Source of the DNA: Blastococcus sp.
Lineage (GTDB): Bacteria; Actinomycetota; Actinomycetes; Mycobacteriales; Geodermatophilaceae
Assembly (NCBI GenBank): GCA_025465355.1
Contig: JAODNN010000022.1
Coordinates: 1 to 41,390 of the forward strand
Length of the DNA: 41,390 nt
Reading direction: 5' to 3'
This document shows positions 391-19,897 of this stretch, in pieces. Under the pieces are notes generated by a model. The model worked only from the letters and a program-made list of their open reading frames with translations. It ran no database searches and was not told where the DNA came from. The position numbers and the translations under genes were made by a program. The first letter of the stretch is position 1, and every line of letters starts with the position of its first letter.

Positions 391-666
391 GGTCTCTTGG
401 CGTCCCAGGCGGCTGCATCAAGCGGATCTCCCTCTGGCGTCGACCGGTCGCAGCCTACGAGGCTGCCGCCCTCCCGCCGGTCGACCGGAGCACGAAGAGG
501 TTCCCGGTCGTCTGCTCGGTCCTGCTATGGAAGGGCGCAGGGCCCCACCCCGGGGCTACGACAGATTCGCGGATCCACAGGACCAGCACTCGTCAACCGC
601 GAGTGACTGGGCCGCCCGGCTGTACCTACGAACCAGAAACACGGGGACCTACGGAACTCATGCGCC

Positions 667-698
667 TCGTCGAGTGAGCAAGACTGCCCCCACGACGA
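667..698 (+). repeat. 32-bp repeat, left copy
   Basis: Begins TCGTCGAGTGA and ends TGCCCCCACGACGA, with seven variable bases between. A second copy in the same orientation lies at 8735-8766 with 28 of 32 bases identical. The outer six bases (TCGTCG/CGACGA) are complementary to each other. It lies just beyond the 3' end of the aldo/keto reductase gene. The core resembles transposon terminal repeats such as those of IS21 elements, but its origin is unproven. Confidence 0.6.
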
Positions 699-712
699 TC
701 GGGGCCGGAGGG

Positions 713-1744
713 TCAGAAGGAGCTCGAGGCCTCCCACAGGTTCATCTCGAGATCGACGGCGTGTTCGTCAATCCTTTTCAGCTCCTCGTCGGTGAAGTTG
801 AGTCGCTGGGTGGCGGCCAGGTTGTCCTCCAGCTGGCCGACGCTGGACGCGCCTACGAGGACCGACGACACGGCGGAGTGCCGCAGCGCCCAAGCCAAGG
901 CCATCTGCGCCAGGGACTGCCGCCGCTCGGCCGCGATGCCAGCCAACCGCCGGACGCGATCGAGGGCCGCCTCGGACAGGAATTCTGGGCGCAGCGAGCC
1001 GGAGCGGGCGCCACGCGAGCCCGCCGGCACGCCAGTGAGATAGCGGTTGGTCAACAGGCCCTGCGCCAGTGGTGAGAATGCGATGATCCCGACGCCGAGG
1101 TCGGTCACCGTGCCAATGAGATCGTTCTCGATCCACCGGTTGAACATCGAGTACGACGGCTGGTGGATGAGCAGAGGGGTTCCGAGGTCGCGGAGGATGT
1201 CGGCCGCTTCCCGGGTTCGCGCGGCGGAGTAGCTGGAGATGCCGGCGTAGAGGGCTTTCCCTGAGACCACCGCCGAGTGCAGCGCCCCCATCGTCTCTTC
1301 GAGAGGCGTGTTCGGGTCGAACCGGTGGGAATAGAAGACATCGACGTAGTCCAGGCCCAGCCGCCGCAGCGACTGATCCAAGCTGGCCAGCAGGTACTTC
1401 CGCGAACCCCACTCGCCGTACGGTCCGGGCCACATGTCGTAGCCGGCCTTAGTGGAGATGACCAGCTCGTCTCGGTAGCGGGCTAGGTCGTCTCGGAGAA
1501 TTCGGCCGAAGTTGACCTCGGCGCTGCCGTACGGCGGCCCGTAGTTGTTGGCCAGGTCGAAGTGGGTGACGCCGAGGTCAAAGGCCTGGCGGATGATGGC
1601 CCGCTGGGTTTGCCGGGGAACGTCGTCCCCGAAGTTTTGCCACAGTCCCAGCGACACCGGAGGCAGCTGGAGTCCGCTGCGCCCGACCCGCCGGTAACCG
1701 CGGTCTGAGTAGCGGTCCTCGGCGGCCACGTACGGATCGGTCAT
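713..1744 (-). CDS. Aldo/keto reductase, YghZ-like
   Basis: A 343-residue NADPH-dependent aldo/keto reductase that would reduce an aldehyde or ketone in the cytosol. The family tetrad is visible: Asp and Tyr in DLANNYG, Lys in STKAG, His in FYSHRFD. The C-terminal region has the nucleotide-binding VLVGASS segment followed by QLEDN. It most resembles the YghZ/Kv-beta-like branch, which shares the ANNYGPPYGSAE stretch. The ATG overlaps the TGA of the NCS1 permease gene (ATGA), so it is translationally coupled as the last gene of a five-gene operon. An in-frame open extension upstream of this ATG is antisense-like and was not used. Substrate unknown; probably a carbonyl product of the operon's pathway. 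Confidence 0.88.
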   Translation of the reverse strand: MTDPYVAAEDRYSDRGYRRVGRSGLQLPPVSLGLWQNFGDDVPRQTQRAIIRQAFDLGVTHFDLANNYGPPYGSAEVNFGRILRDDLARYRDELVISTKAGYDMWPGPYGEWGSRKYLLASLDQSLRRLGLDYVDVFYSHRFDPNTPLEETMGALHSAVVSGKALYAGISSYSAARTREAADILRDLGTPLLIHQPSYSMFNRWIENDLIGTVTDLGVGIIAFSPLAQGLLTNRYLTGVPAGSRGARSGSLRPEFLSEAALDRVRRLAGIAAERRQSLAQMALAWALRHSAVSSVLVGASSVGQLEDNLAATQRLNFTDEELKRIDEHAVDLEMNLWEASSSF

Positions 1745-3288
1745 GCGACGCTCTCCGGCTCGCTCTCGATTTCCTGCGCTTCCCGGTTGCTGAGCGGAAC
1801 CTCCTCGTCGACCGGAAGCGCCTCCTGCTCCCGGACCGTCCGCCGAGCGAGCAGCAGGTGACCCACGAATCCGAGGACCAGCGCGACGATGACGCCGAGG
1901 TTCGCGAAAGCCCAGGCTCCCTTGACCCCTCCGAGGCCCAGGGGGCCCAGAAGGTATCCCTGCCAGGAGAGCCACGATGCGGCGGTATTGGTGACGAGGC
2001 CCCAGCCCAGCACGGTGGCGACCACGATCAGCGCCACCGGAAGCCACCGGACGTCGCCGTAACGGCCGTGCCGGGAGAAGAGGTCGCGTTCGGAGTAGTC
2101 CTTGCGGCGGAGCGCGATGTCGGCGACGAAGACTCCGCACCAGGCCGCGATCGGCACACCGAGGGTGATGAGGAAGCCCTGGAACGGACCGAGGAAGGTC
2201 TGCGCGAAGAACACGACGTAGATCGCGCCGATGGTCATGAGCGTTCCGTCGATGCTGACTGCGACGAACCTCGGTGCGCGCAGACCGGCGTTGAGGAGGG
2301 ACAGCCCGGAGGAGTAGATGTCCATGACGGCGCCAGCGACGAGGCCCAGGACGGTCACGACGATGAAGGGGACGAGGAACCAGGTCGGCAGGATGGTCGC
2401 GAGTGCGCCGACCGGGTCTGCGGCGATGGCCGAATTGAGCTTGTCCGATGATCCCGCGATGAGCAGCCCGAAGATCAGCAACACGGCCGGCCCCAGACCG
2501 GATCCGAACGTCGTCCACCACATGACGCCTCGGCTGGAGGCCGAGCGCGGCAGGTAGCGGGAGTAGTCGGCGGCGGCGTTGACCCAGCCCAGGCCGAACC
2601 CGGTCATGGTGAACAGCACGGCGCCGATGACAGCTGGGGCGCCGCCCGCGTGCAGCTTGCCGATGGCGGAGACGTCGATTGAGTGGATCGCCACGATGAT
2701 GTAGACGACGGTGAGGATGCCGGCGATCCAGGTGATCCACCGTTGCATCCGCATGATCAGGTCGAAGCCAACCAGTCCGCCACCGACGATCAGGGCGACG
2801 ACGACAAGCAGCGCGACGATCTTGGTGAGTGCCCCGCCGTGCCATCCAAGTCGTTCGAAGATGGTGTTCGTCGCCAGCACGGCCAACGCGGCAAGGACGG
2901 TCTCCCAGCCGAGCGTGAGCAGCCACGAGAGCGCCGAAGGCAGGCGGTTGCCCCGCACGCCGAAGACGCTGCGGCTGATCGTCATGGTCGGCGAGGAGGC
3001 GTGCTTGCCGGCGATCGCGATGTAGCCGACGAGCAGGTAGGAGGCCACGACGCCGACGATCACCACCAGCGTCGCCTGCCAGAAAGACAACCCGAAGCCG
3101 AGGATGAACGACCCATAGCTGATCGCGAAGACAGAAACGTTGGCCGCGAACCAGGGCCAGAAGAGATCACGTGGCCGTCCCTTGCGCTCCGCCTCCGCGA
3201 TCTGGTTGACACCGTTGACCTCGATGCTGATCGCCGTGTCCGCGGACGTACCGAGAGCGGCGGTGGAACGCGCGTCGGGCTGGCTCAT
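1741..3288 (-). CDS. NCS1-family cytosine/purine/hydantoin-type permease
   Basis: A 515-residue integral membrane transporter of the nucleobase:cation symporter-1 family, with about twelve hydrophobic segments between residues 45 and 480 and short charged tails. The early conserved region (PWFAANVSVFAISYGSF) and AADYSRYLP further on are typical of NCS1 proteins that import cytosine, purines, allantoin, hydantoins or thiamine. A GTG three codons upstream is in frame, but the ATG at 3288 is preferred because GAGGTG lies six bases before it. It starts 30 bp after the flavin reductase stop and its stop overlaps the aldo/keto reductase start. In this context it probably imports the nitrogen heterocycle acted on by the neighbouring deaminase-like and monooxygenase proteins; the exact substrate cannot be read from sequence. 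Confidence 0.88.
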   Translation of the reverse strand: MSQPDARSTAALGTSADTAISIEVNGVNQIAEAERKGRPRDLFWPWFAANVSVFAISYGSFILGFGLSFWQATLVVIVGVVASYLLVGYIAIAGKHASSPTMTISRSVFGVRGNRLPSALSWLLTLGWETVLAALAVLATNTIFERLGWHGGALTKIVALLVVVALIVGGGLVGFDLIMRMQRWITWIAGILTVVYIIVAIHSIDVSAIGKLHAGGAPAVIGAVLFTMTGFGLGWVNAAADYSRYLPRSASSRGVMWWTTFGSGLGPAVLLIFGLLIAGSSDKLNSAIAADPVGALATILPTWFLVPFIVVTVLGLVAGAVMDIYSSGLSLLNAGLRAPRFVAVSIDGTLMTIGAIYVVFFAQTFLGPFQGFLITLGVPIAAWCGVFVADIALRRKDYSERDLFSRHGRYGDVRWLPVALIVVATVLGWGLVTNTAASWLSWQGYLLGPLGLGGVKGAWAFANLGVIVALVLGFVGHLLLARRTVREQEALPVDEEVPLSNREAQEIESEPESVA

Positions 3289-3318
3289 GCGGAGCACCTC
3301 TCGAGTGGTGGAGCCGGG

Positions 3319-3852
3319 TTAGAAGGCACGCGGAGAGTCGGTGGGGAGAAGCAGGCGGCGGAACAAGGAACCGTGGAAGACCAGCGGAGCTACGTCGGGG
3401 TCGGCGCCCAGGCCGCAGACCTGGAGCAGCGCGACGGTGTGATCACCGGCCGGGAATTCGCCGTGCAGTGTGCACTCGAACCACACCGGCGCCCCCGCGA
3501 TGAAGCGCGCCGTCGAGCCCGTGTCGCGCAACGGGACGCCGACGAAACGCCGGGTGCGGTCGCGGGAGCCGATCTGCCGCGCGAGGTCCGCCTGGTCCGC
3601 GGCCAGCACGGAAACCCCGAGCGTGGCCGCCTGCCTCAGCACCGGCCAGGTCGTCGAGCTCCGCTGCACGGCGCAGGAGACCAGCGGCGGGTTTGCCGAC
3701 ACGCCGACGGTGAACGCCGACGCCACGATCCCCCGAGGCTCCTCGCCCACGTCTGCGACCAACGCAACGACCCCCGACGGGAAGTACGCGAACGTCCGCC
3801 GAAGCAGCTCTGGATCCGCCTCATAGCGCGGCAAGGCGGCCCGCACGCTCAC
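3319..3852 (-). CDS. Flavin reductase (HpaC/NtaB-like), FMN supply
   Basis: A 177-residue member of the flavin-reductase-like FMN-binding split-barrel family. Typical features are the N-terminal LRRTFAYFPSGVVALVA, the FMN-contacting VASAFTVGVSANPPLVSCAV and the later FECTLHGEFPAGDHTVALLQV with the conserved GDH. Such enzymes use NAD(P)H to reduce free FMN for a two-component monooxygenase. The GTG start overlaps the stop of the adjacent NtaA-type monooxygenase (GTGA), so the two proteins should be made in a fixed ratio. The partner is clear from this coupling; the nucleotide preference is not. Confidence 0.88.
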   Translation of the reverse strand: MSVRAALPRYEADPELLRRTFAYFPSGVVALVADVGEEPRGIVASAFTVGVSANPPLVSCAVQRSSTTWPVLRQAATLGVSVLAADQADLARQIGSRDRTRRFVGVPLRDTGSTARFIAGAPVWFECTLHGEFPAGDHTVALLQVCGLGADPDVAPLVFHGSLFRRLLLPTDSPRAF

Positions 3853-5222
3853 GGAACGGCCTCGTCCGAGACCAGGGCGCCGGCACGGAAGCGTGCCCCG
3901 GGGTGCTCCTCCGGCAGGCGGGCGTTGCCCGCACCGAACAGCCTCTCGCGGAACGTCGTTGCGCTCCGCTCCGTCCGGACCAGCCCGGCGCGCTGCAGCT
4001 CGGGGACGACCAGCTCGCCGAACTCGCGGTAGGAGCCGGGCGAGACGAACGGGGTGAAGTTGAAACCGTCCAGGTCGGTCTCCTCCACCAGCGCGGCGAT
4101 CTGCTCGACGACCCCTGCCGGCGTACCGGTGAGGATGAGCTCGCGCATCCCGCGCCGGATGAAGTCGGCGGCCGCCTCGCGGACCGAGGCGTCCTTGTAG
4201 CGCTCGACCTGCGTCCGGCCACCCTCGGTGGTCACCGTCGAAAACGAGGCATTCGGATCAAGCGCTGCCAGGTCGACGCCGGTCATCATCGCGTAGTAGG
4301 CACGCGCGGCATCCGCGTTGACCCAGGACAAGTACTCCTCCAGCCGATCCTCCGCCTCGGCCGAGGAGGAGCCGGTGACAACCGACAGCCCGGAGATGGC
4401 CTTGATCGCCGTATTGCCGCGACCGGCCGCGACGGCCGACGCCCGCAGATCGTCGACCTGCTTGCGCAGCATCGCGGCGTCCTTGCCCTGCAGGAAAACA
4501 AGTTCCGCGTTGGCGGCGGCGAACGCCCGGCCGGTCGACGAGGCACCGGCCTGCAGGATCACGGGTGTCCGCTGCGGGGAGGGCTCGGAGTTGAAGTATC
4601 CGTGGGAGGTGAAGTAGCGACCCTCGTGGCTGATGGGGTGGATTCGATGGGGATCGGCGTATCGGCGGGTCGCCTTGTCGACCAGCACCGAGCCGTCTTC
4701 CCAGGAGCCCTCGAACAGCTTGTAGCTCAGGTCGAGGAAGTCTTGCGCCCGGGCGTAGCGCTCGTCGTGCGGAATGGCTTGCCGGCCGAAGAGTTCGGAG
4801 ACGACGGCGCTGCTTGTGGTCACCACGTTCCAGCCGACACGGCCGTTGGTCAGGTGGTCCAGGGTGGCGAAGCGCCGCGCGTTGGCGTAGGGCTCCTCGA
4901 ACGTGGTCGACGAGGTGACGGCGAAGTTCAGGTCCGCCGTCGCGGCCGCCAGGGCCGGTATGAGGAGCATGGGATCGTTCTTTGGTACCTCGACCGCCTG
5001 CTCGAACGTCACGTCCAGGGTCTCCCCGTGCAGCCACGGGTAGCCATAGGAGTCGGCGAGGAAAATGAAGTCGAAGAAGCCACGCTCGAGGAGCTGGGCG
5101 AGCTCGATCCAGTAGGCGAGTTCCTTGTACCGGTACGTGTGCTGCTCGGGGTGCGCCCACAGCCCCTGGCTGGTCAGGTTGACCTGGTTGATCTCGAAGG
5201 CACCCAGCAAGATCTGCTTCAC
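3849..5222 (-). CDS. FMN-dependent monooxygenase, NtaA/SnaA/DszA family
   Basis: A 457-residue luciferase-like TIM-barrel oxygenase of the group containing nitrilotriacetate, pristinamycin IIA, dibenzothiophene sulfone and riboflavin-cleaving enzymes. These oxidise heterocycles or amines with reduced FMN and oxygen. Recognisable stretches are FFDFIFLADSYG, DHLTNGRVGWNVVTT and PVILQAGASSTGRAFAA. The GTG start at 5222 is chosen over an ATG eight codons upstream because family members begin M-x-K-Q-I-x-LGAF, GAGAGGGAAG lies before it, and it makes a GTGA overlap with the upstream gene. The flavin reductase gene follows with another GTGA overlap. Substrate unknown; riboflavin or a purine-like ring are possibilities suggested only by neighbours. 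Confidence 0.88.
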   Translation of the reverse strand: MKQILLGAFEINQVNLTSQGLWAHPEQHTYRYKELAYWIELAQLLERGFFDFIFLADSYGYPWLHGETLDVTFEQAVEVPKNDPMLLIPALAAATADLNFAVTSSTTFEEPYANARRFATLDHLTNGRVGWNVVTTSSAVVSELFGRQAIPHDERYARAQDFLDLSYKLFEGSWEDGSVLVDKATRRYADPHRIHPISHEGRYFTSHGYFNSEPSPQRTPVILQAGASSTGRAFAAANAELVFLQGKDAAMLRKQVDDLRASAVAAGRGNTAIKAISGLSVVTGSSSAEAEDRLEEYLSWVNADAARAYYAMMTGVDLAALDPNASFSTVTTEGGRTQVERYKDASVREAAADFIRRGMRELILTGTPAGVVEQIAALVEETDLDGFNFTPFVSPGSYREFGELVVPELQRAGLVRTERSATTFRERLFGAGNARLPEEHPGARFRAGALVSDEAVP

Positions 5223-6259
5223 GATTCGCTTCCCTCTCTCAGCCATGCATCCACGCCATCCTCAATCCGCCGCCGCGTGGCGGCGCTCATCCCCGACGCC
5301 AAGGCCCCGGAACGCGCGAAGTGCGCGAGCCTCGCGTCGTCGAGGCCCCAGACCTTCCGCGCGATCTCGTACTGGTCGGTCACCGAGGTCGAGAACCACA
5401 GCGGGTCGTCGGCGTTCAACGTGACGGGAACGCCTGCGGCGAGCAGCCGTGGCGCGGGATGCTCCGCCAAGCTCGGTACGAGCCCCAGTGCGACGTTGGA
5501 GACGGGGCAGACGTCGCAAACCACCCGGTCGGCGGCCAGCCGCTTGAGCAGCCGCTCGCTCTCCACCGCCCGAAAGCCGTGCGAGATCCGCCGGGCCCCC
5601 AACTCGTCGAGCGCTTCCTCGATGCTTTCCGGGCCGCCGGTCTGACCGGCATGGCACGCCAGCGACAGCCCGGCCGCCCGGGCGATATCCGCCGCCTCCC
5701 GGAACCGGCCCAACCCGCCCGGCTCGATGAAACCGGCGGTGCCCAGCGCCCCGACCCCGGCTCCCGCGTAGGCCGCGGCCGTTCGCGCGAGGTCCACGGC
5801 GATCGGCAGGTCTTCGTCGGTATTGATGGTCAGCAGGGCGTTGACTTCGATCCCGGCGTCGCGTGCCGCCTCTCCGAACGCGTGCAGAATCGTGCGGGTC
5901 ACCTGGTCCAGCGATCCGAGCCGCGGGGCATACAACTGCGGCTCGATTGCCGGTTCCAAGTAGACGACCCCTTGAGCCGCCTCGGCGAGCACGAGCGAGC
6001 GACAGAGAACTGCGAGGTCCTCGTGCGTCTCGACGAGGTCCGGCACGGTTCCGTAGGCCTCGAAGAACTCCCAAACATCCCCGAACGCCGTCGGAACATC
6101 GAACGCCCTACCCCGCCGCCGGGCGAGCTCCCGGACCGCGCCGAGAGGGTAGGCACCGTCCAGATGGGCGTGCAGATGCGCCTTCGGCAGCCCTCGCAGC
6201 GACCGGGAGCTCCTCGAACCGCGCACCCCTACCGGGGAAGGCGCTCCGTCAGCTCTCAC
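5219..6259 (-). CDS. Adenosine-deaminase-like amidohydrolase, catalytic Glu replaced by Gln
   Basis: A 346-residue protein of the adenosine/adenine deaminase branch of the amidohydrolase TIM barrels. The zinc ligands are present: HxH at 30/32 in HLHAHLDGA, His in CHAGQ, and Asp in LNADDPL; the SHGF His is also kept. In the usual HAGE motif, Glu protonates the purine ring, but here residue 206 is Gln (codon CAG at 5644-5642). It may therefore act on a different substrate or have a changed mechanism. The GTG at 6259 is chosen because GGAGG sits nine bases upstream; an upstream in-frame ATG at 6334 lies in the promoter. It is the first gene of the five-gene operon, behind a promoter shared in layout with the RibBA-like gene. 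Confidence 0.8.
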   Translation of the reverse strand: MRADGAPSPVGVRGSRSSRSLRGLPKAHLHAHLDGAYPLGAVRELARRRGRAFDVPTAFGDVWEFFEAYGTVPDLVETHEDLAVLCRSLVLAEAAQGVVYLEPAIEPQLYAPRLGSLDQVTRTILHAFGEAARDAGIEVNALLTINTDEDLPIAVDLARTAAAYAGAGVGALGTAGFIEPGGLGRFREAADIARAAGLSLACHAGQTGGPESIEEALDELGARRISHGFRAVESERLLKRLAADRVVCDVCPVSNVALGLVPSLAEHPAPRLLAAGVPVTLNADDPLWFSTSVTDQYEIARKVWGLDDARLAHFARSGALASGMSAATRRRIEDGVDAWLREGSES

Positions 6260-6297
6260 GTCCGCGTGCCTCCGCCCAGTCGCAACGATGCTCGGAG

Positions 6298-6352
6298 ACT
6301 GTAGGAAGCGCGCAAGCCAACGTCGAAGACACATTGACGATCGACCTATAAG
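6298..6352 (-). promoter_or_regulatory. LysR-type operator and promoter of the five-gene operon
   Basis: On the minus strand the order is CTTATAGGTC (6352-6343), 15 bp, TTCGAC (-35, 6327-6322), 18 bp, TACAGT (-10, 6303-6298). The same box and -35 with the same 15-bp spacing precede the gene at 7423. The start codon at 6259 would follow a leader of about 30 bases. The box is also about 36 bp before the LysR gene, allowing autoregulation. Confidence 0.6.
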
Positions 6353-6387
6353 GTGCGCCGATAACTCACCGACGAGGAGGTCGCGCC

Positions 6388-7314
6388 ATCCGACCGCCCG
6401 ATCTCGACCTGCGCCTTCTGCGGTATTTCAGTGCCGTCGTCGAGGCAGGCAGCTTCACCAGGGCCGCCGCGGCTCTGCACGTCTCACAACCCGCCCTCAG
6501 CCAGGCCGTCCAGACGCTGGAGAAGGTGGTCGGCGCGCGACTGATCGAACGCGCGACCAAGGGATCGCCACGCGGGATCGGTCTGACCCAGGCCGGCGAG
6601 GTATTCCTCGAGGCAGCCAGCGACATCCTGTCGCGGGTCGAGCAGGCCGTGAACGCCGTTCGGCGGGTCGAGGCCAGGAGGCCGTTGCACGTCGGCTTCG
6701 GCACCAGCACCCCTCGGCACCTGGTCCGCGCCGTGCTCACCGCCGCCGACGACGTCGGACTGGTCGACGTCTCCCTGGAACACGTCCCCTGGGGCAGCGA
6801 AGTCGTGTGGCTGCTCGACGGTCGCGTCGACCTTGTATTCCTGCAGGCACCCGAGGACTACTCGAACCCCGAACTCACGCTGGTTCCGCTGCAACCGGTG
6901 CGCCGACTGGCGGTCTTCCACGCGGGCCACCGCCTCGCGTTGCATCCCCAGATCGCCATGGCGGATCTCGCGCAAGAGCCGATCATCGATGCCGCGTCCG
7001 ACCGGGCGTACTGGTTGGTCGACCCGCGGCCCGACGGATCCACGCCTGCCGTTGTCGGGCCGGCGGCGCGAACGGTCGAGGAGATGCTCGCGTTCGTATC
7101 CGCCGGACGCGGAATGGCCATCACCAGCCACTCCGTGGCCGAAACCAGCGGTAGCCAGGAATTGGCGTTCGTCCCGATCCGAGATCTGGAGGCGGCCACG
7201 GTCCATCTCGCGACGAAGCTTTCCGATCGACGAGAGGAAGTGGCGGCGACCCGTGATGCGGTTGCCCGCTCCTCCGCTCTCCGCGGCGATAACGCCACTT
7301 CCTCTACCGGATAG
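6388..7314 (+). CDS. LysR-family transcriptional regulator with probable ATC start
   Basis: A 308-residue LysR regulator. The N-terminal winged HTH is clear (LDLRLLRYFSAVVEAGSFTR followed by AAAALHVSQPALSQAVQTLE), and residues 90-300 form the periplasmic-binding-like effector domain. No ATG, GTG or TTG occurs between the in-frame TAA at 6349 and the HTH. The best start is ATC at 6388, seven bases after GAGGAGG, giving a normal N-terminus; the next usual start at 6526 would delete the HTH. It is divergent from the deaminase-like operon and upstream of the RibBA-like gene, and probably controls both through the shared box. The ATC could also be a point mutation or sequencing error in an ATG. 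Confidence 0.82.
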   Translation: MRPPDLDLRLLRYFSAVVEAGSFTRAAAALHVSQPALSQAVQTLEKVVGARLIERATKGSPRGIGLTQAGEVFLEAASDILSRVEQAVNAVRRVEARRPLHVGFGTSTPRHLVRAVLTAADDVGLVDVSLEHVPWGSEVVWLLDGRVDLVFLQAPEDYSNPELTLVPLQPVRRLAVFHAGHRLALHPQIAMADLAQEPIIDAASDRAYWLVDPRPDGSTPAVVGPAARTVEEMLAFVSAGRGMAITSHSVAETSGSQELAFVPIRDLEAATVHLATKLSDRREEVAATRDAVARSSALRGDNATSSTG

Positions 7315-7320
7315 AGCACG

Positions 7321-7376
7321 CTTATAGGTCCTTCCGGTTTTCGTATTCGACTTCCCCTCCACTGGCGGCCTACGGT
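7321..7376 (+). promoter_or_regulatory. LysR-type operator and promoter of the RibBA-like gene
   Basis: CTTATAGGTC at 7321-7330, 15 bp, TTCGAC (-35) at 7346-7351, 19 bp, TACGGT (-10) at 7371-7376. Layout matches the promoter at 6298-6352 almost exactly. It lies seven bases after the LysR stop codon, so the downstream gene has its own regulated promoter. Confidence 0.6.
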
Positions 7377-7422
7377 CCCGTCCACGGGAGCGTGCCGACC
7401 GGTGAGGCAGGAGACGACGGTG

Positions 7423-8580
7423 ATGCAGCGCGGGCAGCCGAAGGGACCCCCGGAGAGGGGTCAAGCCCCCGACAGCTCTCTCGCGGCCGCCTACGGCGCC
7501 TGGCGGTCAGGAAGCTGCCTCGTCCTTCTGGACGACGTCTCCGCCGTGCCGACGGCTCGCCTGGCCTTCCCGGCGGAAACCGCGACCCCCGATCAGGTGG
7601 CCTTCGCGATCCGCCACGGCTCCGGGTACTTGAGCGTCGCGCTGAGAGCGGCCGACGCGGATCGCCTGGACATCCCGGTGATGACGACGGCTCACTGCGC
7701 CGGAGACGTCGAGGTGGCCGTCTCCGTGGACGCCGCCTCGCACACGACCACCGGGATCTCCGCGACCGACAGAGCACGCACCCTGGCCCTGCTCGGATCT
7801 CGGCGTACGCACGCGGCGGACTTCAGCCGCCCAGGGCATGTGGCGGTGACCCGCGTGAAGCGGCCTGCCACCGACTCCGCGGAATCAGTCGAAGGCGCGC
7901 TCCTGCAGCTGTCCGAAAGTGTCGGCAAACACCCTGCCGTAGCCCTGGTCGACCTCGTCGGCATCGCGGACCCGACTCGCCTTGCAGACGTAGACGAGAG
8001 CATCACGTTCGCAGCCAAATATGATCTCGCCACCTGCCGGGTCAGTGCGGTCGTGGCCCAACTACTGCGCCCAGCAGCACTACGCCGCGCGGCGGAGGTC
8101 TGCGTCCGGGGGGGCCGGGACATCCGCGCCGTCGCATACCGGACCGGGCCAGGCCACCTCCAGCACGTGGCGTTCATCCGTGGCGACATCTCCGACCGCG
8201 ACGCGCAGGTCGACGTCCACGTCGAATGTGACGCAGGGAGCGTCTTCGGTTCGGCGGTCTGCCGGTGCGGCGACGCCATGAACGGCAGGCTCGCGCGGCT
8301 GCGATCCCACAACGGCGTCCTCCTCGTGATTCGTGAGGCACGGGCAGCTGAGGCGTCCACGAGCGGGCGGGCCGTGGAAGGCCGACTTCCGTACACCGGC
8401 TGTGCGAATGAGCAGGGTCCCGACCAACACGCGCTCACGGGCTGCGGAGCTTCGATCGCCCTGGAGATCCTCGCCGACCTCGGGATCGAACCCAACCAAG
8501 CGAAAGCGATACCAGCTCTCGCGGGAGCTGACCTCTCTGCCAGCTCACGCGCGTGCAAGCTCCTAACTTCGCGGTCATGA
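7423..8580 (+). CDS. Diverged RibB-RibA-like protein (DHBP synthase/GTP cyclohydrolase II fold)
   Basis: A 385-residue fusion resembling bifunctional RibBA of riboflavin synthesis. The N-terminal half keeps the RibB-like HTTTGISATDRART and RPGHV, and the C-terminal half keeps the GTP cyclohydrolase II zinc site C-x10-C-x-C (Cys 269, 280, 282 in ECDAGSVFGSAVCRCGD). However, the RibB acidic loop (DDEDRENEGDL-like) reads DDVSAVPTARL, and the RibA RQEGRGIGL motif is replaced by REARAAEAST. Normal riboflavin-pathway activity is therefore doubtful. ATG 7423 (or the adjacent GTG 7420) follows AGGAGA. It has its own promoter matching that of the monooxygenase operon, so it is probably a pathway-specific enzyme or flavin/pterin-binding protein rather than housekeeping RibBA. 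Confidence 0.75.
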   Translation: MQRGQPKGPPERGQAPDSSLAAAYGAWRSGSCLVLLDDVSAVPTARLAFPAETATPDQVAFAIRHGSGYLSVALRAADADRLDIPVMTTAHCAGDVEVAVSVDAASHTTTGISATDRARTLALLGSRRTHAADFSRPGHVAVTRVKRPATDSAESVEGALLQLSESVGKHPAVALVDLVGIADPTRLADVDESITFAAKYDLATCRVSAVVAQLLRPAALRRAAEVCVRGGRDIRAVAYRTGPGHLQHVAFIRGDISDRDAQVDVHVECDAGSVFGSAVCRCGDAMNGRLARLRSHNGVLLVIREARAAEASTSGRAVEGRLPYTGCANEQGPDQHALTGCGASIALEILADLGIEPNQAKAIPALAGADLSASSRACKLLTSRS

Positions 8581-8636: not shown

Positions 8637-8734
8637 CGTCACAGCGCCCGTCACGGATAGCGTCGTTCTCGTCAACCTGCTGAGGCCCACCAACTTCGGC
8701 GGTGGAGTACCGCACGGCGGCACCCTCACTCGCA

Positions 8735-8766
8735 TCGTCGAGTGAACCAAATTGCCCCCACGACGA
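8735..8766 (+). repeat. 32-bp repeat, right copy
   Basis: Direct repeat of 667-698: the first 11 and last 14 bases are identical and the seven-base centre differs at four positions. It lies at the right border of the LysR-controlled block. Confidence 0.6.
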
Positions 8767-8843
8767 GCGAACTCATGACGCTGGCGTCCTGTCCCCACGC
8801 TGCCTGACGCGACGTGTCACCGAACCATGCAGCAGTCCCGTCC

Positions 8844-9767
8844 TTATCTGCCTGCCGCTGTGCGCCGTTGCAAGTGCGGGAGGACGTCTCGGGCAAAGAT
8901 GGGCACGACCTTCGCCCGGTCGTGTGCCACTGGCGCGAAGATCAGCCAGTCCGCGCCGGCGTCGTGGTATTCGGCCGCCCGCGCGACGGCATCGCCCGGC
9001 GTTCCGCTGAGCAGGTAGCGATCCGCGAGTCGAGTGAAGTCCTGCTGGTAAACGTCGCTGGCGCCGCGGATCGCCGCCTGGCGTGCGGCCGGGCCATCGT
9101 CGCCCACCGCGCCCCAGCAGAGGATCGCCCCGTGCACGGTCGAGGGGTCGCGGCCGGCACTCTCGGCCTCTTCGCGAACACGTGCCAGGCTTCGCGCCAG
9201 CTGTTCGGGGGTGTACATGTACGGCAGCCAGACATCTGCGTAGCGGCCCGCCCGCCGAACGGCGGCGGCGCTGCGGCCGCCGACCCAGATGGGTGGGCCA
9301 CCGGCCTGCACCGGGCCGGGCTGCAGCTCCAACGCCGGGACCTGGGTGAATCGGCCGTCGAACGAGACCGGCCCACGGGCCCAGAACCGCCTGGCCAACT
9401 CGAGCGTCTCGTCGGTGCGGGCACCACGCTCGGCGGGGTCGACACCGACCGCGGTGAACTCCGGCGGGAACTCCCCACCGACGCCCACACCGAGTTCGAA
9501 CCGGCCACCGGAGACCTGGTCCAGCGTGGTTGCCAGCTTGACCGCGAGCGCTGCGGGATAGAGCGGCAGAACCGTCAGGGAGCTGATCAGTCGGACCCGG
9601 CTGGTCACCCCTGCCGCCGCGGCCAGGGTGACGAAGCTGTTCCCCACCGGACCGTGGAAGAACACGTGTTCGCCACTTGCGACACCGTCGAAGCCGAGCG
9701 CCTCGGCCCGACGCGCCTGCTCGACCGTCCGGGCCGGGTCGGGGCCGATAAAGAGTGCCACCCGCAA
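8844..9767 (-). CDS. LLM-class flavin/F420-dependent oxidoreductase
   Basis: A 307-residue luciferase-like TIM-barrel oxidoreductase. Typical stretches are RAEALGFDGVASGEHV, LDQVSGGRFELGVGVGG, then GGPPIWVGGRSAAAVRRAGR and ADVWLP. Its length and spacing fit the F420-dependent actinobacterial branch better than FMN two-component oxygenases, but cofactor is not certain. The TTG start is supported by AGGAGG seven bases upstream. It is transcribed divergently from the acyl-CoA ligase, and both promoters overlap the same TetR-type operator. It probably oxidises or reduces an intermediate of the acyl-CoA pathway. Confidence 0.85.
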   Translation of the reverse strand: MRVALFIGPDPARTVEQARRAEALGFDGVASGEHVFFHGPVGNSFVTLAAAAGVTSRVRLISSLTVLPLYPAALAVKLATTLDQVSGGRFELGVGVGGEFPPEFTAVGVDPAERGARTDETLELARRFWARGPVSFDGRFTQVPALELQPGPVQAGGPPIWVGGRSAAAVRRAGRYADVWLPYMYTPEQLARSLARVREEAESAGRDPSTVHGAILCWGAVGDDGPAARQAAIRGASDVYQQDFTRLADRYLLSGTPGDAVARAAEYHDAGADWLIFAPVAHDRAKVVPIFARDVLPHLQRRTAAGR

Positions 9768-9801
9768 CGCGCGTCCTCCTGACCTCCGCCTGGGTGTACC
9801 G

Positions 9802-9869
9802 ACGCTATTCCACCCACCGATAGAACTTCAACTAGGTGGTTGACGAATTGCGTGGACCGCCCATAGGTT
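9802..9869. promoter_or_regulatory. Divergent promoters with TetR-type operator, site 1
   Basis: Operator core TCAACTAGGTGGTTGA at 9828-9843, an imperfect palindrome. On the plus strand TTGACG (9840-9845) is followed after 18 bp by TAGGTT (9864-9869). On the minus strand TTGAAG is followed after 18 bp by TAGCGT (9807-9802). Both -35 boxes overlap the operator, so binding would block both promoters. A sequence sharing TTCAAC-N5-GGTTGACGA lies at 14665-14684. Confidence 0.65.
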
Positions 9870-9923
9870 CCTGAGCACCCACGTGGGGTTCCCCGCTCGG
9901 CGGCAGCCACCGAAGGAGTTGGC

Positions 9924-11480
9924 ATGGCCCGTTTGGTGCACGAGTTCGTCCAGTCGGCCGTGGAACGGTTCGGCGACCGGACCGCGCTCGTCGACGACAA
10001 CGGCACGCTGAGCTACCGCGAACTGTGGGACCGCTCCCGTCGCGTGGCCGGTGCGCTGGCCGACCTCGGCGTACAGCCAGGCGATCGGGTCGTCGGGTTG
10101 ATGAACAACCGCAACGAATGGGTCGAGGTCGACAACGCGGTCTCCATGCTCGGCGCCGTCCGCGGTCGGCTGAACAACCGCGACTCGGCGCGGGAGTTCG
10201 CCTTCGTCTTGAACGACCTGCGGCCGACCGTCGTCATCACCGGCCCGGAGTTCACCGACACGATCCAGGGACTGGTGGAGAACGGCGCCGTCCCCGCCAT
10301 GCGAGTCCTGGGCCTGGGCTCGGACGGCGACTACGAACGGCTACTGGCCGCGGCAGAGCCGATGGTCGCCCGACCGACCAGCACCGACGACCCCTATCTG
10401 GTCTTCCACACGTCCGGCACGACGGGCCACTACAAGGGCGCGGTCTACCTGCACCGCAACTGGCTCGCCGTCTACCGGAACATCCTCGCCGAGATCATGG
10501 GGGACGTCGATCCGGACTGCGCGCTGCTCCACGTCGGTCCGCTCTCCCACCAGTCGGGCATCCTCACCTCGCCGGGCCTGTTCCGCGGTGCCCGGTCCGT
10601 CATGCTCGCTCAGTTCGACCCCGTGCGGATCTTCGAGCTCATCGAGCAGCAGAAGATCACCCACACGATCCTGGCGCCGGCGATCATCAACGCCCTGGCC
10701 AGCCACCCCGCGGCGGCCGAGCACGACTTGTCCAGCCTGCGCCGCATCTACTACTCCGGGGCGCCGATCTCACCGACCGTGCTGCGCCGGGCCATCGACG
10801 TCTTCGGGCCGGTCTTCCTGCAGGGCTACGGCTCGACCGAGGGCGGCACGATCTACAACACCATCCTCTATCCCGACGAGCACATCGCTGCGCTGGAGTC
10901 CCATCCCGAGCGGCTCTCCTCGTGCGGGCGCCCCAGCGTCTTCTTCGATGTCCGCCTTGCCGACGACGAGGGCAAGGAAGTAGCCGTCGGCGACATGGGC
11001 GAGATCTGGGTCCGGGGGGACGCCGTCTCCCAGCACTACTGGGAGGAGCCCGAGGCGACGGCCGCGATGTACGTCGACGGCTGGTTCCGGATGGGCGATC
11101 TCGCGGTGCGGGACCCCGAGGGCTACATCACCATCGTCGACCGCAAGAACGACATGATCATCAGTGGCGGTCTCAACGTGTACCCCCGCGAGGTCGAAGA
11201 CGTCATCGCCAGCCATCCGGCGGTTCGGGAAGTGGCCGTCATCGGCGTTCCGCACGAGAAGTGGGGCGAGGCGGTCAAGGCCTGCGTCTCGCTGACGGAC
11301 GGCGGCTCGCTGTCACTGGAGCAGGTACAGGAGCACTGTCGCAGCGCGGGACTGGCCTCCTACAAGAAGCCGCTGAGCCTCGACGTCGTCGACGAGATCC
11401 CCAAGACCGCCGTGGGCAAGCTGTTCCGACGCGGCCTGCGAGAGCCCTACTGGACGGGGCAGGAGCGGCGCATCGGCTGA
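9924..11480 (+). CDS. AMP-dependent acyl-CoA synthetase/ligase
   Basis: A 518-residue adenylate-forming enzyme that activates a carboxylic acid with ATP and CoA. Visible motifs: P-loop TSGTTGHYKGA near residue 160, GYGSTEGG near 305, DGWFRMGDLA near 390, the hinge DRKNDMIISGG near 410 and the catalytic Lys in PKTAVGKLFRR near 500. AAGGAG lies before the ATG. The full motif set and normal length indicate an active enzyme. It is the first plus-strand gene behind operator site 1 and probably starts the pathway handled by the downstream dehydrogenase, hydratase-like and thiolase-like proteins. The acid substrate is unknown; fatty, steroid-side-chain or aryl acids all fit the family. Confidence 0.9.
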   Translation: MARLVHEFVQSAVERFGDRTALVDDNGTLSYRELWDRSRRVAGALADLGVQPGDRVVGLMNNRNEWVEVDNAVSMLGAVRGRLNNRDSAREFAFVLNDLRPTVVITGPEFTDTIQGLVENGAVPAMRVLGLGSDGDYERLLAAAEPMVARPTSTDDPYLVFHTSGTTGHYKGAVYLHRNWLAVYRNILAEIMGDVDPDCALLHVGPLSHQSGILTSPGLFRGARSVMLAQFDPVRIFELIEQQKITHTILAPAIINALASHPAAAEHDLSSLRRIYYSGAPISPTVLRRAIDVFGPVFLQGYGSTEGGTIYNTILYPDEHIAALESHPERLSSCGRPSVFFDVRLADDEGKEVAVGDMGEIWVRGDAVSQHYWEEPEATAAMYVDGWFRMGDLAVRDPEGYITIVDRKNDMIISGGLNVYPREVEDVIASHPAVREVAVIGVPHEKWGEAVKACVSLTDGGSLSLEQVQEHCRSAGLASYKKPLSLDVVDEIPKTAVGKLFRRGLREPYWTGQERRIG

Positions 11481-11506
11481 GCCCGTGCCGCCCGCCGCCC
11501 GCCGGG

Positions 11507-12139
11507 TCAGGAGGACGCTCGGAACAGCCGCAGAAGATTGGCGGCGACGGCGGCGGCCATCGCCTCGATGTCCTTCTTGCGCTTGGACCGGAACCACACC
11601 GGGACGTAATTGATCGCGCCGTGCAGGTTGTGCATCGCGATCTGCTCGTCGACGTCGAACTCGCCGGAAGCGATGCCCTCACGGACGACGGAGCGGAAGA
11701 CCATGTCGTGCTGTCGGCGCAGCGCCTTGCTGCGCTGGCGGTAGGTCTCGGGCCAGTCCATCGGCTGCAGGAACATCCTGGCCATCTGTGGCTGATCACG
11801 GACGATGATCACCAACTGGGTGGCGATGAGCCGGCTCAGCCGTTCCGACGCCGTGCCCGCCGAGTCGGCCGCCACCTCGGCCAGCCGGTCGTTGATCCGG
11901 GTGGCCAGGACCTCCAGGCACGCACTGACCAGCGCTTCCTTGCTCGGGAAGTAGTGGTACAGCGTCGCCTTGGTCAGGTCGAGGCGATCGGCGATCTCGT
12001 CGAGGCTCATCCCGTGGAAGCCGCGCTCAGCCAGCACGTCGGCCGCGGCGGTGAGGATGTCCTGGACCTTCTGGTCGCGCCGGCGGGCCACGCGGCTGAC
12101 CGGCACCTCCGCCGATGCCACCACCGGACGCGTCGTCAT
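11507..12139 (-). CDS. TetR/AcrR-family repressor of the acyl-CoA cluster
   Basis: A 210-residue TetR regulator. Residues about 25-70 form the DNA-binding domain, with ILTAAADVLAERGFHGMSLD followed by IADRLDLTKATLYHYFPSKE. The C-terminal ligand domain ends with HGAINYVPVWFRSKRK, a region similar to TetR proteins that sense acyl-CoA-type ligands. GGAGGG precedes the ATG by nine bases. It is the last gene of the minus-strand operon hydratase-like, DUF35, dehydrogenase, TetR, starting 16 bp after the dehydrogenase stop, so it probably represses its own transcription. The likely operators are at 9828-9843 and 14666-14681. Confidence 0.88.
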   Translation of the reverse strand: MTTRPVVASAEVPVSRVARRRDQKVQDILTAAADVLAERGFHGMSLDEIADRLDLTKATLYHYFPSKEALVSACLEVLATRINDRLAEVAADSAGTASERLSRLIATQLVIIVRDQPQMARMFLQPMDWPETYRQRSKALRRQHDMVFRSVVREGIASGEFDVDEQIAMHNLHGAINYVPVWFRSKRKKDIEAMAAAVAANLLRLFRASS

Positions 12140-12155
12140 CGCGGTTATCCCTCCG

Positions 12156-13334
12156 TTAGGTCAGGGCGGCGGTTCTGCTCCAGCCCGGTTCCCTGCGCAG
12201 CTGCCCCGCCACGATGCGCTGCTGGATCTCGCTCGTACCGCCACCGATGGTGAACAGCCGGGCATCCCGGTAGAGCCGCTCGATCTCGTACTCGCGGATG
12301 TAGCCGTAGCCGCCATGGACCTGCAGCGCGAGATTCACCGCCGAGTTGGCCAGCCGGCCGCCGACGAGCTTGCCGATCGAGGCGTCCAGGATAGCTGGGC
12401 GCTCCCTGTCGACCAGGCCGGCAACGTGCCGGTACAGCAGCCGGCACTCCAACAGCGCCGCAGCGATGTCGGCCAGCATCGCCTGGACGGCGCCGATCTC
12501 GTGGAGAGGGGCGCCGAAGGCGGTGCGGTCGGCCGCGTACGCCGTCGCGAGGTCCAGGGCCCGAGCACACATACCCGCGCCGATGGCCGGCACGGCCAGC
12601 CGTTCGTAGTCGAGCACGTCCATTCCAACCTGCCAGCCCGCGCCCTCCGCGCCGAGCCGGTCGGTGTCGGGCACCCGGACGTCGTCGAGGAGGAGCTCGC
12701 ACGTCGGTGAGGAGCGAAGGCCCATCTTTTCCAGCGTCCGGGCGACCGCGATGCCGGGCGTATCCATCGGGACGACGAACGTCGTCATCGCGCCGCGCGT
12801 GCCTCCGCCGCCGGTGCGGCACAGCACCAGCAGGGCGTCGGCGATGGCCGCGTTCGTGATGAACATCTTCCGGCCGTCCAATCGCCAGCCGTCGCCGTCC
12901 CGCACCGCACGGGTGGTGATCGCCGCGACGTCGGACCCCGTGTGCGGCTCGGTGACCGCCCAGGCGCCGAGGAGCCGACCCTCGGCGACGGCGGGCAGCC
13001 AGCGCTCTTGCTGCTCGGCCGACCCGTGCAGCACCACGGCGCGAGCCAGGAGATAGGTCGGCATGGTCGACATCGCCAGCCCCGCGTTGCCATAGGCCAG
13101 CGCCTCGATGCCCTCGTGCAGTGCAAGCGAATCGGGGCCGGTGCCGCCGAACTCCTGCGGGACGACTGCGCCGTAGAGCCCGAGCCGGCCCGCCTCGAGC
13201 AGCAGTTCGCGGATCAGCGGCAGGTCCTGCGGATGGCTGTCCAACTCGGACCCGCGAGGCAGGATGCGGTCGGCGGTGAAACGCGCGACGGTCTCGGTGA
13301 TAGCGGAGCGCTTCGGCGCTGCCGCGACACTCAT
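12156..13334 (-). CDS. Acyl-CoA dehydrogenase
   Basis: A 392-residue FAD flavoprotein that desaturates an acyl-CoA at C2-C3. The FAD/substrate signature AWAVTEPHTGSDVAA is near residue 130 and the C-terminal GYGYIREYEIERLYRDARLF and GGGTSEIQQ are intact. The usual catalytic Glu of the medium-chain type (YEGTS) is Gly here, but a Glu is present in LDYERL, the position used by isovaleryl-CoA and long-chain dehydrogenases, so an active enzyme of that type is likely. Its ATG overlaps the DUF35 gene stop (ATGA). Position in the TetR operon puts it after the acyl-CoA ligase in the pathway. Confidence 0.9.
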   Translation of the reverse strand: MSVAAAPKRSAITETVARFTADRILPRGSELDSHPQDLPLIRELLLEAGRLGLYGAVVPQEFGGTGPDSLALHEGIEALAYGNAGLAMSTMPTYLLARAVVLHGSAEQQERWLPAVAEGRLLGAWAVTEPHTGSDVAAITTRAVRDGDGWRLDGRKMFITNAAIADALLVLCRTGGGGTRGAMTTFVVPMDTPGIAVARTLEKMGLRSSPTCELLLDDVRVPDTDRLGAEGAGWQVGMDVLDYERLAVPAIGAGMCARALDLATAYAADRTAFGAPLHEIGAVQAMLADIAAALLECRLLYRHVAGLVDRERPAILDASIGKLVGGRLANSAVNLALQVHGGYGYIREYEIERLYRDARLFTIGGGTSEIQQRIVAGQLRREPGWSRTAALT

Positions 13335-13750
13335 GGCTTGTCCCCCGTCGTGAAGCGGAGTTCTGTCCAGTCCCCCTGGTCGACGAATGCAGGCGTCACG
13401 TGCCCGCCGATCTCCGTCGCCCCGGTCACCCGGCCCACCATTCGGCCGCCTCCATCGAGGTCGATGGTGGCGATGTCATAGGGGACGTCGTCGGCGAAGG
13501 CCGGGTCGAAGGCGCGGTGCACGGTGATGAACGAATAGACCGTGCCGATACCCGAGGCCTCCTCCCAGCGGATGCCGGGGTCGGCGCAGTACGGGCAGCC
13601 CGGTGTCGGGGGAAATCGGCGGCGACCGCAGGCGGTGCAGGCCTGGATCAGCACGCGCCCGTTCCGCAGGCCCTGCCAGTAGGTCGCGCTCTGCTCGTCG
13701 GGGCTCGGCCGTGGCCGAGTGGGCGGAGTCGAGGGCTGCGTGCCGGTCAT
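13331..13750 (-). CDS. DUF35 Zn-ribbon/OB-fold acyl-CoA-binding protein
   Basis: A 139-residue protein with a rubredoxin-like zinc ribbon (CTACGRRRFPPTPGCPYC, two CxxC pairs near residues 38-55) followed by an OB-fold (GIGTVYSFITVHRAF and the VPYDIATIDLDGGGRMVGRV region). DUF35 proteins bind acyl-CoAs and partner with thiolase-like or hydratase subunits; in steroid side-chain breakdown the DUF35 domain of ChsH2 binds the aldolase Ltp2. Here the Ltp-like thiolase homologue is encoded just across the divergent promoter at 14725, a natural partner. It lies seven bases after the hydratase-like gene and overlaps the dehydrogenase start. Confidence 0.87.
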   Translation of the reverse strand: MTGTQPSTPPTRPRPSPDEQSATYWQGLRNGRVLIQACTACGRRRFPPTPGCPYCADPGIRWEEASGIGTVYSFITVHRAFDPAFADDVPYDIATIDLDGGGRMVGRVTGATEIGGHVTPAFVDQGDWTELRFTTGDKP

Positions 13751-13757
13751 CAGCGCC

Positions 13758-14570: not shown

Positions 14571-14625
14571 CGCGATCCTCCAGAGTCTGCCGGCCGCGCG
14601 ACGGCCCGTTTCCCGCCGCTGCGAG

Positions 14626-14707
14626 ACGCTAACACCGAGTCGGGTTCCGACGTCAAGGAAGAATTTCAACCGACCGGTTGACGATCGCCCTCCGGCCGCC
14701 CTAGCGT
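14626..14707. promoter_or_regulatory. Divergent promoters with TetR-type operator, site 2
   Basis: Operator core TCAACCGACCGGTTGA at 14666-14681, palindromic in 7 of 8 positions per half. On the plus strand TTGACG (14678-14683) is followed after 18 bp by TAGCGT (14702-14707), the same layout as site 1. On the minus strand TTGACG (14656-14651) is followed after 19 bp by TAGCGT (14631-14626). It lies between the hydratase-like operon and the thiolase-like operon. Confidence 0.68.
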
Positions 14708-14724
14708 CCGGCCCGGGAGGCGAC

Positions 14725-16922: not shown

Positions 16923-16930
16923 GCCCGACG

Positions 16931-17971: not shown

Positions 17972-18015
17972 CGTCAGCTCGGCTGACGAAGCGGGAAGTC
18001 TGGAAGGAAGTGGGC

Positions 18016-19062: not shown

Positions 19063-19605
19063 AGACCCCCGTACGTCCGGCACCTTCCGGCAACCCCGCC
19101 GGCTGGGATCTTGGGCCAGAAAGCGCCGGCGGCTGACGACGCGGAGCCGGTCGGTCAGGTGGGGGGATCAAGTCCGCTGGCGTGGTGGGGCTGCCCAGAG
19201 TTCGGTTGACCCGTGCGGGAAGGGGCGATCATGCCGCGCGCGTGGCGTGGGCGGAGACGAGGCGAACTCCTCGACTGCCGGTTCTGCAATCGTCGGCCTC
19301 GCCGCCGACAGTCGGAACCGCCGCAACTCGCGCGCGGCTCCTCGTCGCTGAACTCGCCTCGCACGTGAAGACGCGGCACAGCGGCGTGGCCAGGTATTGC
19401 TCGACTCGTCGAGGAAGAAGACCCCATGGCTCGGCCAAAGTGTGCTCCGATGTGAGCACCGCGCCGCAGTCCGACCGTGTCAGGAAACCGCGCAGACACC
19501 ATCTCCGCTGGGACAGCCGCTGGTTGGGCGGGCCCCCCTGGGTGCCCAAGGGGGAAACCGACCTCCTCCATGCAGTCGCGCGGGCTCCACTACCTTGACT
19601 GACGA

Positions 19606-19716: not shown

Positions 19717-19726
19717 GATCCCCGAT

Positions 19727-19759: not shown

Positions 19760-19779
19760 TTTCGCCCCGTCCTGGCCGT

Positions 19780-19866: not shown

Positions 19867-19897
19867 CGGAGCGGACTGACACTCCTACGATCACGTC

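Follow-up and report, generated by a model that had tools for sequence, protein, structure and literature searches.

The Rut pathway works with a permease, a luciferase-like monooxygenase (LLM), a flavin reductase, a hydrolase and an aldehyde reductase, a logic that resembles the gene set described here. In the family that includes NtaA, ethylenediaminetetraacetate (EDTA) monooxygenase and riboflavin lyase, all dependent on flavin mononucleotide (FMN), oxidative N-dealkylation with release of an aldehyde is one of the known reactions. In lux operons that carry rib genes, a riboflavin-synthesis paralogue is reportedly regulated together with a luciferase-family monooxygenase. We analysed a block of seven genes in Blastococcus sp. 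(contig JAODNN010000022.1; the whole stretch of 41,390 nucleotides is called the window) that encodes an NCS1 permease, an FMN-dependent monooxygenase, a flavin reductase, an aldo/keto reductase (AKR), a hydrolase of the adenosine deaminase (ADA) fold, a LysR regulator and a degenerate RibB-RibA paralogue (RibBA-like).

Two published accounts bear on these families. Riboflavin lyase is reported as one product of a set of five genes, whereas breaking down lumichrome takes a cluster of 25, among them genes for a P450 and several hydrolases (PMC12746152). In guanine and cytosine deaminases of the amidohydrolase superfamily, a glutamate is reported to take a proton from water via a histidine; the ring nitrogen and afterwards the departing amine receive it (PMC12828455).

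What does the Blastococcus gene set degrade? Tentatively, and somewhat short of probable, we read it as a LysR-controlled, horizontally spread catabolic operon for a purine-type base. The most useful new facts are a clade of hydrolases with glutamine for the catalytic glutamate, an operator-like element found across phyla, and three interchangeable types of transporter. A sequence-only reading of this DNA had found no matching pathway, and in searches of the open-access literature we likewise found no paper on the gene set.

Results

Gene content and layout

Profile scans with Pfam and NCBIfam for the genes, and a matrix search for the operators, place the following features in the block.

713-1744, minus strand: aldo/keto reductase (AKR), YghZ/AKR14 type (NF007388)
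1741-3288, minus strand: NCS1 permease (PF02133)
3319-3852, minus strand: flavin reductase, GTG start (PF01613)
3849-5246, minus strand: NtaA/DmoA-family FMN-dependent monooxygenase (TIGR03860)
5219-6334, minus strand: ADA-like hydrolase (adenosine deaminase fold) with HAGQ for HAGE (Q231) (PF00962, TIGR01430)
6343-6367: putative primary LysR operator in the divergent promoter, GAGTTATCGGCGCACCTTATAGGTC as read on the minus strand; matrix from 13 relatives
6388-7314, plus strand: LysR regulator, probable ATC start (profile scans)
7306-7330, plus strand: putative second, weaker LysR-type operator, ACCGGATAGAGCACGCTTATAGGTC, upstream of the RibBA-like gene
7402-8580, plus strand: degenerate RibB-RibA paralogue with RibB and RibA domains

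All seven genes lie where the sequence-only reading had put them and belong to the families it had named, and the tight GTGA/ATGA coupling it described is there. The five minus-strand genes form one tight operon in the order ADA-like hydrolase, monooxygenase, flavin reductase, NCS1, AKR. The first two overlap by 28 bases, the monooxygenase stop and the flavin reductase start share GTGA at 3849-3852, and NCS1 and AKR share ATGA at 1741-1744. LysR, on the plus strand, diverges from the operon; behind it, in the same direction, comes the RibBA-like gene, which is transcribed away from the operon.

The AKR passes the YghZ subfamily model NF007388 (482.9 bits, cut-off 448), and the flavin reductase, scanned without its GTG start, matches PF01613 at 101 bits. 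The permease reaches 134.8 bits on PF02133 (cut-off 23.5) and stays below the cut-off of the NCBIfam NCS1 model (93.3 against 353.1).

Two starts call for comment. Because the LysR frame, viewed over 6352-6525, holds no ATG, GTG or TTG ahead of the helix-turn-helix, its start was placed at the ATC at 6388, the best candidate, which is preceded by GAGGAGG; the closest relative (L055) reads ATCGTG and has a GTG start. The ATC may be an unusual start codon, the product of a mutation or a fault in the assembly. The true ADA-like start probably lies about 75-130 bases inside the open reading frame, near 6205-6259, because residues 1-36 align poorly with relatives and nearly all have a predicted local distance difference test score (pLDDT) below 50.

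A core conserved across three phyla

Is the block a chance assembly of neighbours? Among 249 genomes of the window's order (its own included), a single other genome, G026, has a close monooxygenase orthologue (75% identity); remaining matches reach at most 47%. Its neighbours are LysR, ADA-like, NCS1 and AKR genes; flavin reductase and RibBA are missing there. A scan of 84,980 species genomes, confined to records with one of two short peptides and thus possibly short of the total, gave 22 loci, of which 19 (L055-L073) have monooxygenases 60-84% identical to that of the window. Three distant loci (L074-L076, 33-35%) were set aside. The 19 loci and G026, the 20 relatives below, come from Actinomycetota, Alphaproteobacteria and one Acidobacteria metagenome-assembled genome (MAG). 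A search of 397 genomes of Kaistia's order yielded only two clusters, both already known.

An ADA-like gene stands by the monooxygenase in 19 of the 20 relatives (the exception is Kribbella, L057), and LysR lies nearby in 18 (all except L058 and L067, the latter on a short contig). Core synteny across three phyla therefore makes the arrangement more than chance, and the joint function under one LysR regulator that the sequence-only reading had proposed is supported for this core. The outcome by which that reading would have been refuted, a gene set not kept together in other genomes, did not occur. AKR orthologues (68-75% identity) occur in 11 relatives, NCS1 in eight and a flavin reductase in eight; since some contigs end within the cluster, these counts are lower bounds.

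A transporter of one of three types was found in 18 of the 20. In ten relatives, genes of ATP-binding cassette (ABC) transporters replace NCS1, each ABC type being conserved within itself. An NMT1/THI5-like set of binding protein, ATPase and fused permease is present in L064, L066, L068, L069 and L071, and its permease alone on the short contig of L067. A spermidine/putrescine-like set occurs in L059, L070, L072 and L073, with binding proteins 67-75% identical to that of L072; Bosea (L070) has a complete PotABCD-like set. Matches to the Pot-type families stay below the equivalog cut-offs. L057 showed no transporter, and neither did L065, where the contig stops just past the monooxygenase gene. 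The counts of transporters and neighbouring genes rest on a comparison of those of L059, L061, L064, L072 and L073 with all 20 loci.

How did the clusters reach such different hosts? In a midpoint-rooted tree, the window monooxygenase groups with those of three other actinobacteria and five alphaproteobacteria (support 100/99); its order-mate G026 falls elsewhere in the tree, paired with Amycolatopsis. Over 18 clusters, pairwise monooxygenase identities correlate with those of the ADA-like protein (r = 0.62) and of LysR (r = 0.71). We infer that the gene set moved between phyla, its genes broadly together. Among 72,556 plasmid records the best identities are 34.0% for the hydrolase, 45.3% for the monooxygenase and 34.4% for the RibBA-like protein, so no member of the clade is among them; the nearest annotated plasmid-borne relatives of NCS1 are cytosine permeases at about 37%.

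Some loci have additional genes. An FAD amine oxidase directly follows NCS1 in two Mycolicibacterium clusters (L061 12938-14272; L062 12914-14191), where no AKR was seen. Shinella (L059) has a ribokinase-like gene behind AKR (194.2 bits, below the cut-off of 299.65). Rough gene calls showed no further catabolic gene set that turns up repeatedly beside the clusters. L035 (G087; 9281-11640) holds another monooxygenase/ADA-like pair (46% and 37% identity), with the ordinary HAGE; the pairing of the two families may extend beyond the HAGQ clade.

A deaminase fold with glutamine for the catalytic glutamate

The ADA-like protein scores 235.5 bits on PF00962 (cut-off 27) and passes the adenosine deaminase equivalog TIGR01430 (230.4 against 216.55). 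Residues H55, H57, H228, H252, D309 and D310, which we take to be the ADA metal ligands and the catalytic His and Asp, are invariant in 20 ADA-like sequences. The HAGE motif, whose Glu is presumably the ADA equivalent of the proton-transfer glutamate of the superfamily, reads HAGQ (Q231) in all 20 aligned proteins, the window's included. The "altered deaminase" noticed in the single sequence is therefore a property of the whole clade. The outgroup L035 keeps the glutamate, as do two further relatives (L078, L079), the only ADA-like matches that a search of 346 genomes of the phylum added at E <= 1e-70.

An AlphaFold2 model of the protein has a mean pLDDT of 90.0. Its four best Foldseek matches have template modelling scores of 0.86-0.88 on the target at 29-30% identity, with 3rys at 5.2e-23. 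Closest among the solved structures come 3rys (adenine deaminase AAur1117) and 3ou8, a P. aeruginosa protein titled adenosine deaminase that we take to be adenine deaminase PA0148; a sequence search agrees. The HLDG start of the hydrolase resembles that of adenosine deaminases, where its Asp contacts ribose.

Since the catalytic Glu is replaced by Gln throughout the clade, the usual deamination of adenine or adenosine is probably not the reaction of these enzymes. They could instead act on an alkylated or protonated ring nitrogen, or on a different leaving group.

The monooxygenase and the flavin reductase

With 442 bits on TIGR03860 (cut-off 279.7), the monooxygenase is a full-length NtaA/DmoA member. 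Among relatives of solved structure, the alkane monooxygenase LadA scores highest (393.5 bits), followed by riboflavin lyase (376.1) and DmoA (353.6); a hexachlorobenzene dehalogenase (6lr1) is also among them. No solved relative is close enough to settle the substrate. A flavin reductase accompanies the monooxygenase here and in the eight relatives counted above; the others may use one encoded elsewhere. The aldehyde-releasing N-dealkylation known from the family would explain the AKR.

An operator-like element at the divergent promoter

Many relatives have a palindrome-like promoter element in common, GGTYAT-N8-CTTATRRC. We built a matrix from 13 relatives' sites, excluding the window; the sites were picked by eye from the promoter regions of 18 relatives after the window site had been seen, and none came from L056, L061, L062, L064 or L069. 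The best site in the window is 6343-6367, with a score of 17.66 that none of 60 random windows reaches. The second site, 7306-7330, scores 8.43, a value reached by 6 of 2000 random 101-base stretches and just exceeded by an unrelated site at 34135 (8.50). The exact 10-mer CTTATAGGTC is common to both sites, occurs nowhere else in the window and was matched in 0 of 100 shuffles. The pattern ATN8CTTATAGG, derived from the two window sites and so matching them by construction, turns up at no third place in the genome of 4.9 Mb.

Shinella (L059) has an additional box at 14970 ahead of its ABC set, as have Kaistia (L072) at 3830 and Bosea (L070) at 7894, where the transporter genes run leftwards from 7643. 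In L069, box 4235 precedes the sole NMT1-type binding-protein gene found there (from 4052 leftwards). The boxes of L069 and L070 sit behind LysR, the place that the RibBA-like gene occupies in the window.

A later matrix scores the L069 promoter site at 29.3, though it lay outside the training set. It finds no promoter site in L056, L058 or L067 and gives the promoters of L061, L062 and L064 only 8.6-8.7; at unrelated places it reaches 15.3 in L061 and 18.7 in L073, above the L073 promoter site (18.1). With six of the 20 loci lacking a good promoter site and unrelated sites of 15-19 in L061 and L073, the operator is not universal.

Across five alphaproteobacterial genomes the pattern has 9 matches against 15 for a backward control, with none in G252, so that the count is meaningless by itself. 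Kaistia and Bosea have only two matches each, all at the cluster and its transporter. In Shinella two of four matches lie elsewhere, by what read from sequence alone as a major facilitator superfamily protein and a trimethylamine-methyltransferase-like protein; both were judged chance. Taken together, bacteria of different phyla share a putative operator element.

A local, degenerate RibBA-like gene

The RibBA-like protein scores 160.3 bits on the RibBA equivalog (cut-off 569) and aligns with the genome's own RibBA at 38% identity over 276 residues. It lacks RENEGD and GHTE of 3,4-dihydroxy-2-butanone-4-phosphate (DHBP) synthase and H(E/D)GRGIGL of GTP cyclohydrolase II; among the homologues compared, the former two are present in 10 of 10 and the latter in 9 of 10. 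One homologue, from Amycolatopsis (L090), likewise lacks the cyclohydrolase motif. A cysteine motif, presumably the cyclohydrolase zinc site, is retained (HVEC..VFGS..CRC aligned with HSEC..VFGS..CDC). The GC content at third codon positions is 0.79 (0.76 in the second half; 0.84-0.89 in the operon genes), a coding-type composition, so the gene is intact, possibly under weaker constraint.

No RibBA gene occurs in any of the 20 relatives' clusters, and RibBA was rejected as a marker of the pathway. At E <= 1e-60 only the window's own genome has a RibBA-like match among the 249, and at E <= 1e-30 six of the 20 relatives' genomes do, all nine homologues there keeping RENEGD. The sequence-only reading had joined permease, deaminase, oxygenase, reductase, AKR and RibBA into one pathway: its core stands, and RibBA as a general member does not. 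Because the weaker operator copy precedes it, the gene is probably co-regulated by LysR in the window lineage, outside the conserved pathway. Co-regulation with an FMN-consuming oxygenase hints at FMN supply as its first use.

Surroundings of the block

Two copies of an imperfect direct repeat, 82% alike, bracket the whole AKR-to-RibBA block.

657-701, plus strand: 45-nucleotide imperfect direct repeat, left copy, just outside the block
8725-8769, plus strand: 45-nucleotide imperfect direct repeat, right copy, just outside the block

They may be a trace of the block inserting as a unit; no transfer RNA gene was found in the window. Beyond the right copy, 8844-9767 encodes a second luciferase-family protein of another subfamily (TIGR03619) with only weak matches (<=31% identity) in the relatives' loci, and 16931-17971 a further one. 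Between them (9924-15873) lie acyl-CoA synthetase, TetR, acyl-CoA dehydrogenase and thiolase-like genes.

Discussion

A purine-type base as the likeliest substrate

How would the set work? NCS1, replaced elsewhere by ABC transporters, would import a small amino-substituted heterocycle, likeliest a base of the purine type that carries an N- or ring substituent. The flavin reductase would provide FMNH2, with which the monooxygenase would oxidise the carbon adjoining a nitrogen, as its relatives do in N-dealkylation, and the AKR would turn the released aldehyde into an alcohol. The substrate of the ADA-fold hydrolase would be one that needs no protonation by the usual Glu, such as an N-alkylated or NH-lactam ring; the enzyme would hydrate it at a C-N position of the ring, and the product would enter ordinary purine/ureide catabolism encoded elsewhere. 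RibBA-like would have joined the regulon in the window lineage only, perhaps first for FMN supply, and may now be inactive or repurposed. That the set amounts to a new catabolic pathway, combining a novel type of hydrolysis by a Glu-to-Gln ADA fold with FMN-dependent C-N oxidation, the captured RibBA perhaps being a new pathway enzyme, is possible rather than probable.

The link to purines comes from families and from genomes. In Celeribacter sp. HF31 (L073) the cluster and its ABC transporter lie about 400 bases from a ureidoglycolate lyase gene, beyond which follow a bicupin, a 2-oxo-4-hydroxy-4-carboxy-5-ureidoimidazoline (OHCU) decarboxylase to which a deacetylase-type domain (putative allantoinase) is fused, and urate oxidase; these urate-pathway genes occupy 16786-21290. 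OHCU decarboxylase is encoded in 18 of 19 relatives' genomes (one match partial, 29.5 bits), in the window genome and in G026, that is 20 of 21. For comparison, it occurs in 130 of 248 genomes of the window's order, in 63 of 199 of the family to which Herbiconiux (L066) belongs and in 123 of 199 of Kaistia's order; these baselines include some host genomes. In a stratified calculation, which assumes how the hosts divide among the strata and a rate of 0.62 for five hosts, the chance of 20 of 21 is 8e-6; with 0.62 for all hosts it is 6e-4. We regard this association as a pointer of moderate strength, and a confounded one, to a purine-derived product. The transporter and deaminase families, the Celeribacter urate genes and the OHCU co-occurrence favour a purine-type base, and of the three substrates guessed from the sequence alone, a purine-like compound is, on indirect evidence, the best.

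Several observations weigh on the other side. The lost proton-transfer Glu speaks against adenine or adenosine being deaminated in the ordinary manner. The four Celeribacter urate-pathway genes have no relative in the other 19 loci, a case of one in 20. The OHCU rate in the window's own family is 31 of 39, and with this 0.79 for all hosts the chance becomes 0.047; the co-occurrence could also come from large, versatile genomes, genome size being uncontrolled. AKR and flavin reductase each go unseen in about half of the clusters, neither ABC type points to purines, and the ribokinase-like gene and the amine oxidase are confined to one and two of the 20 loci, respectively. In Kaistia and Bosea no operator match lies by a purine operon, and operator counts are unenriched.

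Alternative substrates

Could the set scavenge pyrimidines, or the pyrimidine of thiamine, in the manner of Rut, with ring cleavage by reduced FMN, ADA-fold hydrolysis and AKR in place of RutE? The division of labour is the same as in the Rut pathway, NCS1 weakly matches the hydroxymethylpyrimidine transporter CytX (63.1 bits, cut-off 309.85), and the alternative transporters, THI5-like and PotD-like, both have thiamine-related members. The RutA and RutF models, however, give only 39.7 (cut-off 498.3) and 44.7 bits (cut-off 254.75), and the urate-pathway association is left unexplained; we consider this account unlikely.

We are equally doubtful of a non-nucleobase substrate such as a cyclic amide, an alkaloid or an organosulphur compound, for which the ADA fold and NCS1 kinship would be misleading. 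The lost catalytic Glu fits such a substrate, as do ABC transporter types not typical of nucleobases and monooxygenase relatives named for nitrilotriacetate (NTA), EDTA, dimethyl sulphide, hexachlorobenzene and alkanes. The other presumed ADA active-site residues are invariant, however, which suggests that the geometry for purine binding is retained.

A special case of the purine-type reading is a cytokinin-type substrate, with N6-alkyladenines yielding a purine and an unsaturated aldehyde that AKR detoxifies. The family cog1816 is reported to include a cytokinin deaminase, Patl2390, that does not use adenine (PMC13296781) and may be a parallel to the window hydrolase. The amine oxidase next to NCS1 in the two Mycolicibacterium clusters without a visible AKR would suit such a substrate. 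Yet the hosts, going by their names and by the habitats we take them to have, are not all plant-associated (Celeribacter, Elstera, thiocyanate-reactor MAGs), and no such cluster was found in the open-access literature on cytokinin catabolism. We rate this special case as quite improbable.

Catabolism of riboflavin, another flavin or a pterin, to which the sequence-only reading had been led by the RibBA link and the kinship with RcaE, is the least credible: the monooxygenase shares its subfamily with riboflavin lyase, the RibBA paralogue is probably co-regulated in the window and Shinella has its ribokinase-like gene, but RibBA is local, absent from all 20 relatives' clusters and stripped of the catalytic motifs of both domains, LadA outscores riboflavin lyase, which leaves the kinship with RcaE little weight, and the scanned neighbours are unlike the riboflavin lyase and lumichrome gene sets as far as these are set out in the portion used of PMC12746152.

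Implications

The compound that such a compact, mobile set in three phyla breaks down is most likely a natural one, common enough to exert selection for the set. A natural Gln-for-Glu clade offers a direct test of the role of the glutamate in the amidohydrolase superfamily, and the operator offers a route to the inducer. The RibBA case illustrates that gene adjacency can point to the wrong substrate.

Comparison with known systems

Like lux operons with rib genes, the window would place a riboflavin-synthesis paralogue under common control with a luciferase-family monooxygenase; unlike them, its RibBA paralogue has lost the catalytic motifs. The likeness to Rut is one of logic, whereas the oxygenase and the reductase fail the RutA and RutF models. 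With the adenine deaminases 3rys and 3ou8 (PF00962/cog1816) the window hydrolase has the fold, the putative metal ligands and the catalytic His and Asp in common, but it differs from them in HAGQ for HAGE and HLDG for HLEG/HIEG, at 29-30% identity. In rca/lum riboflavin catabolism an N-heterocycle loses its side chain to a related LLM enzyme, whereas the other gene content of those clusters, to the extent covered by the portion cited, is unlike the window set (PMC12746152). LadA (3b9n), RcaE (5w48), DmoA (6ak1) and 6lr1 are homologous to the window monooxygenase over its full length, and the window gene has a flavin reductase beside it; its clade nevertheless stands apart, with members 60-84% identical to the window protein, where the next-best matches within the order reach 40-47%.

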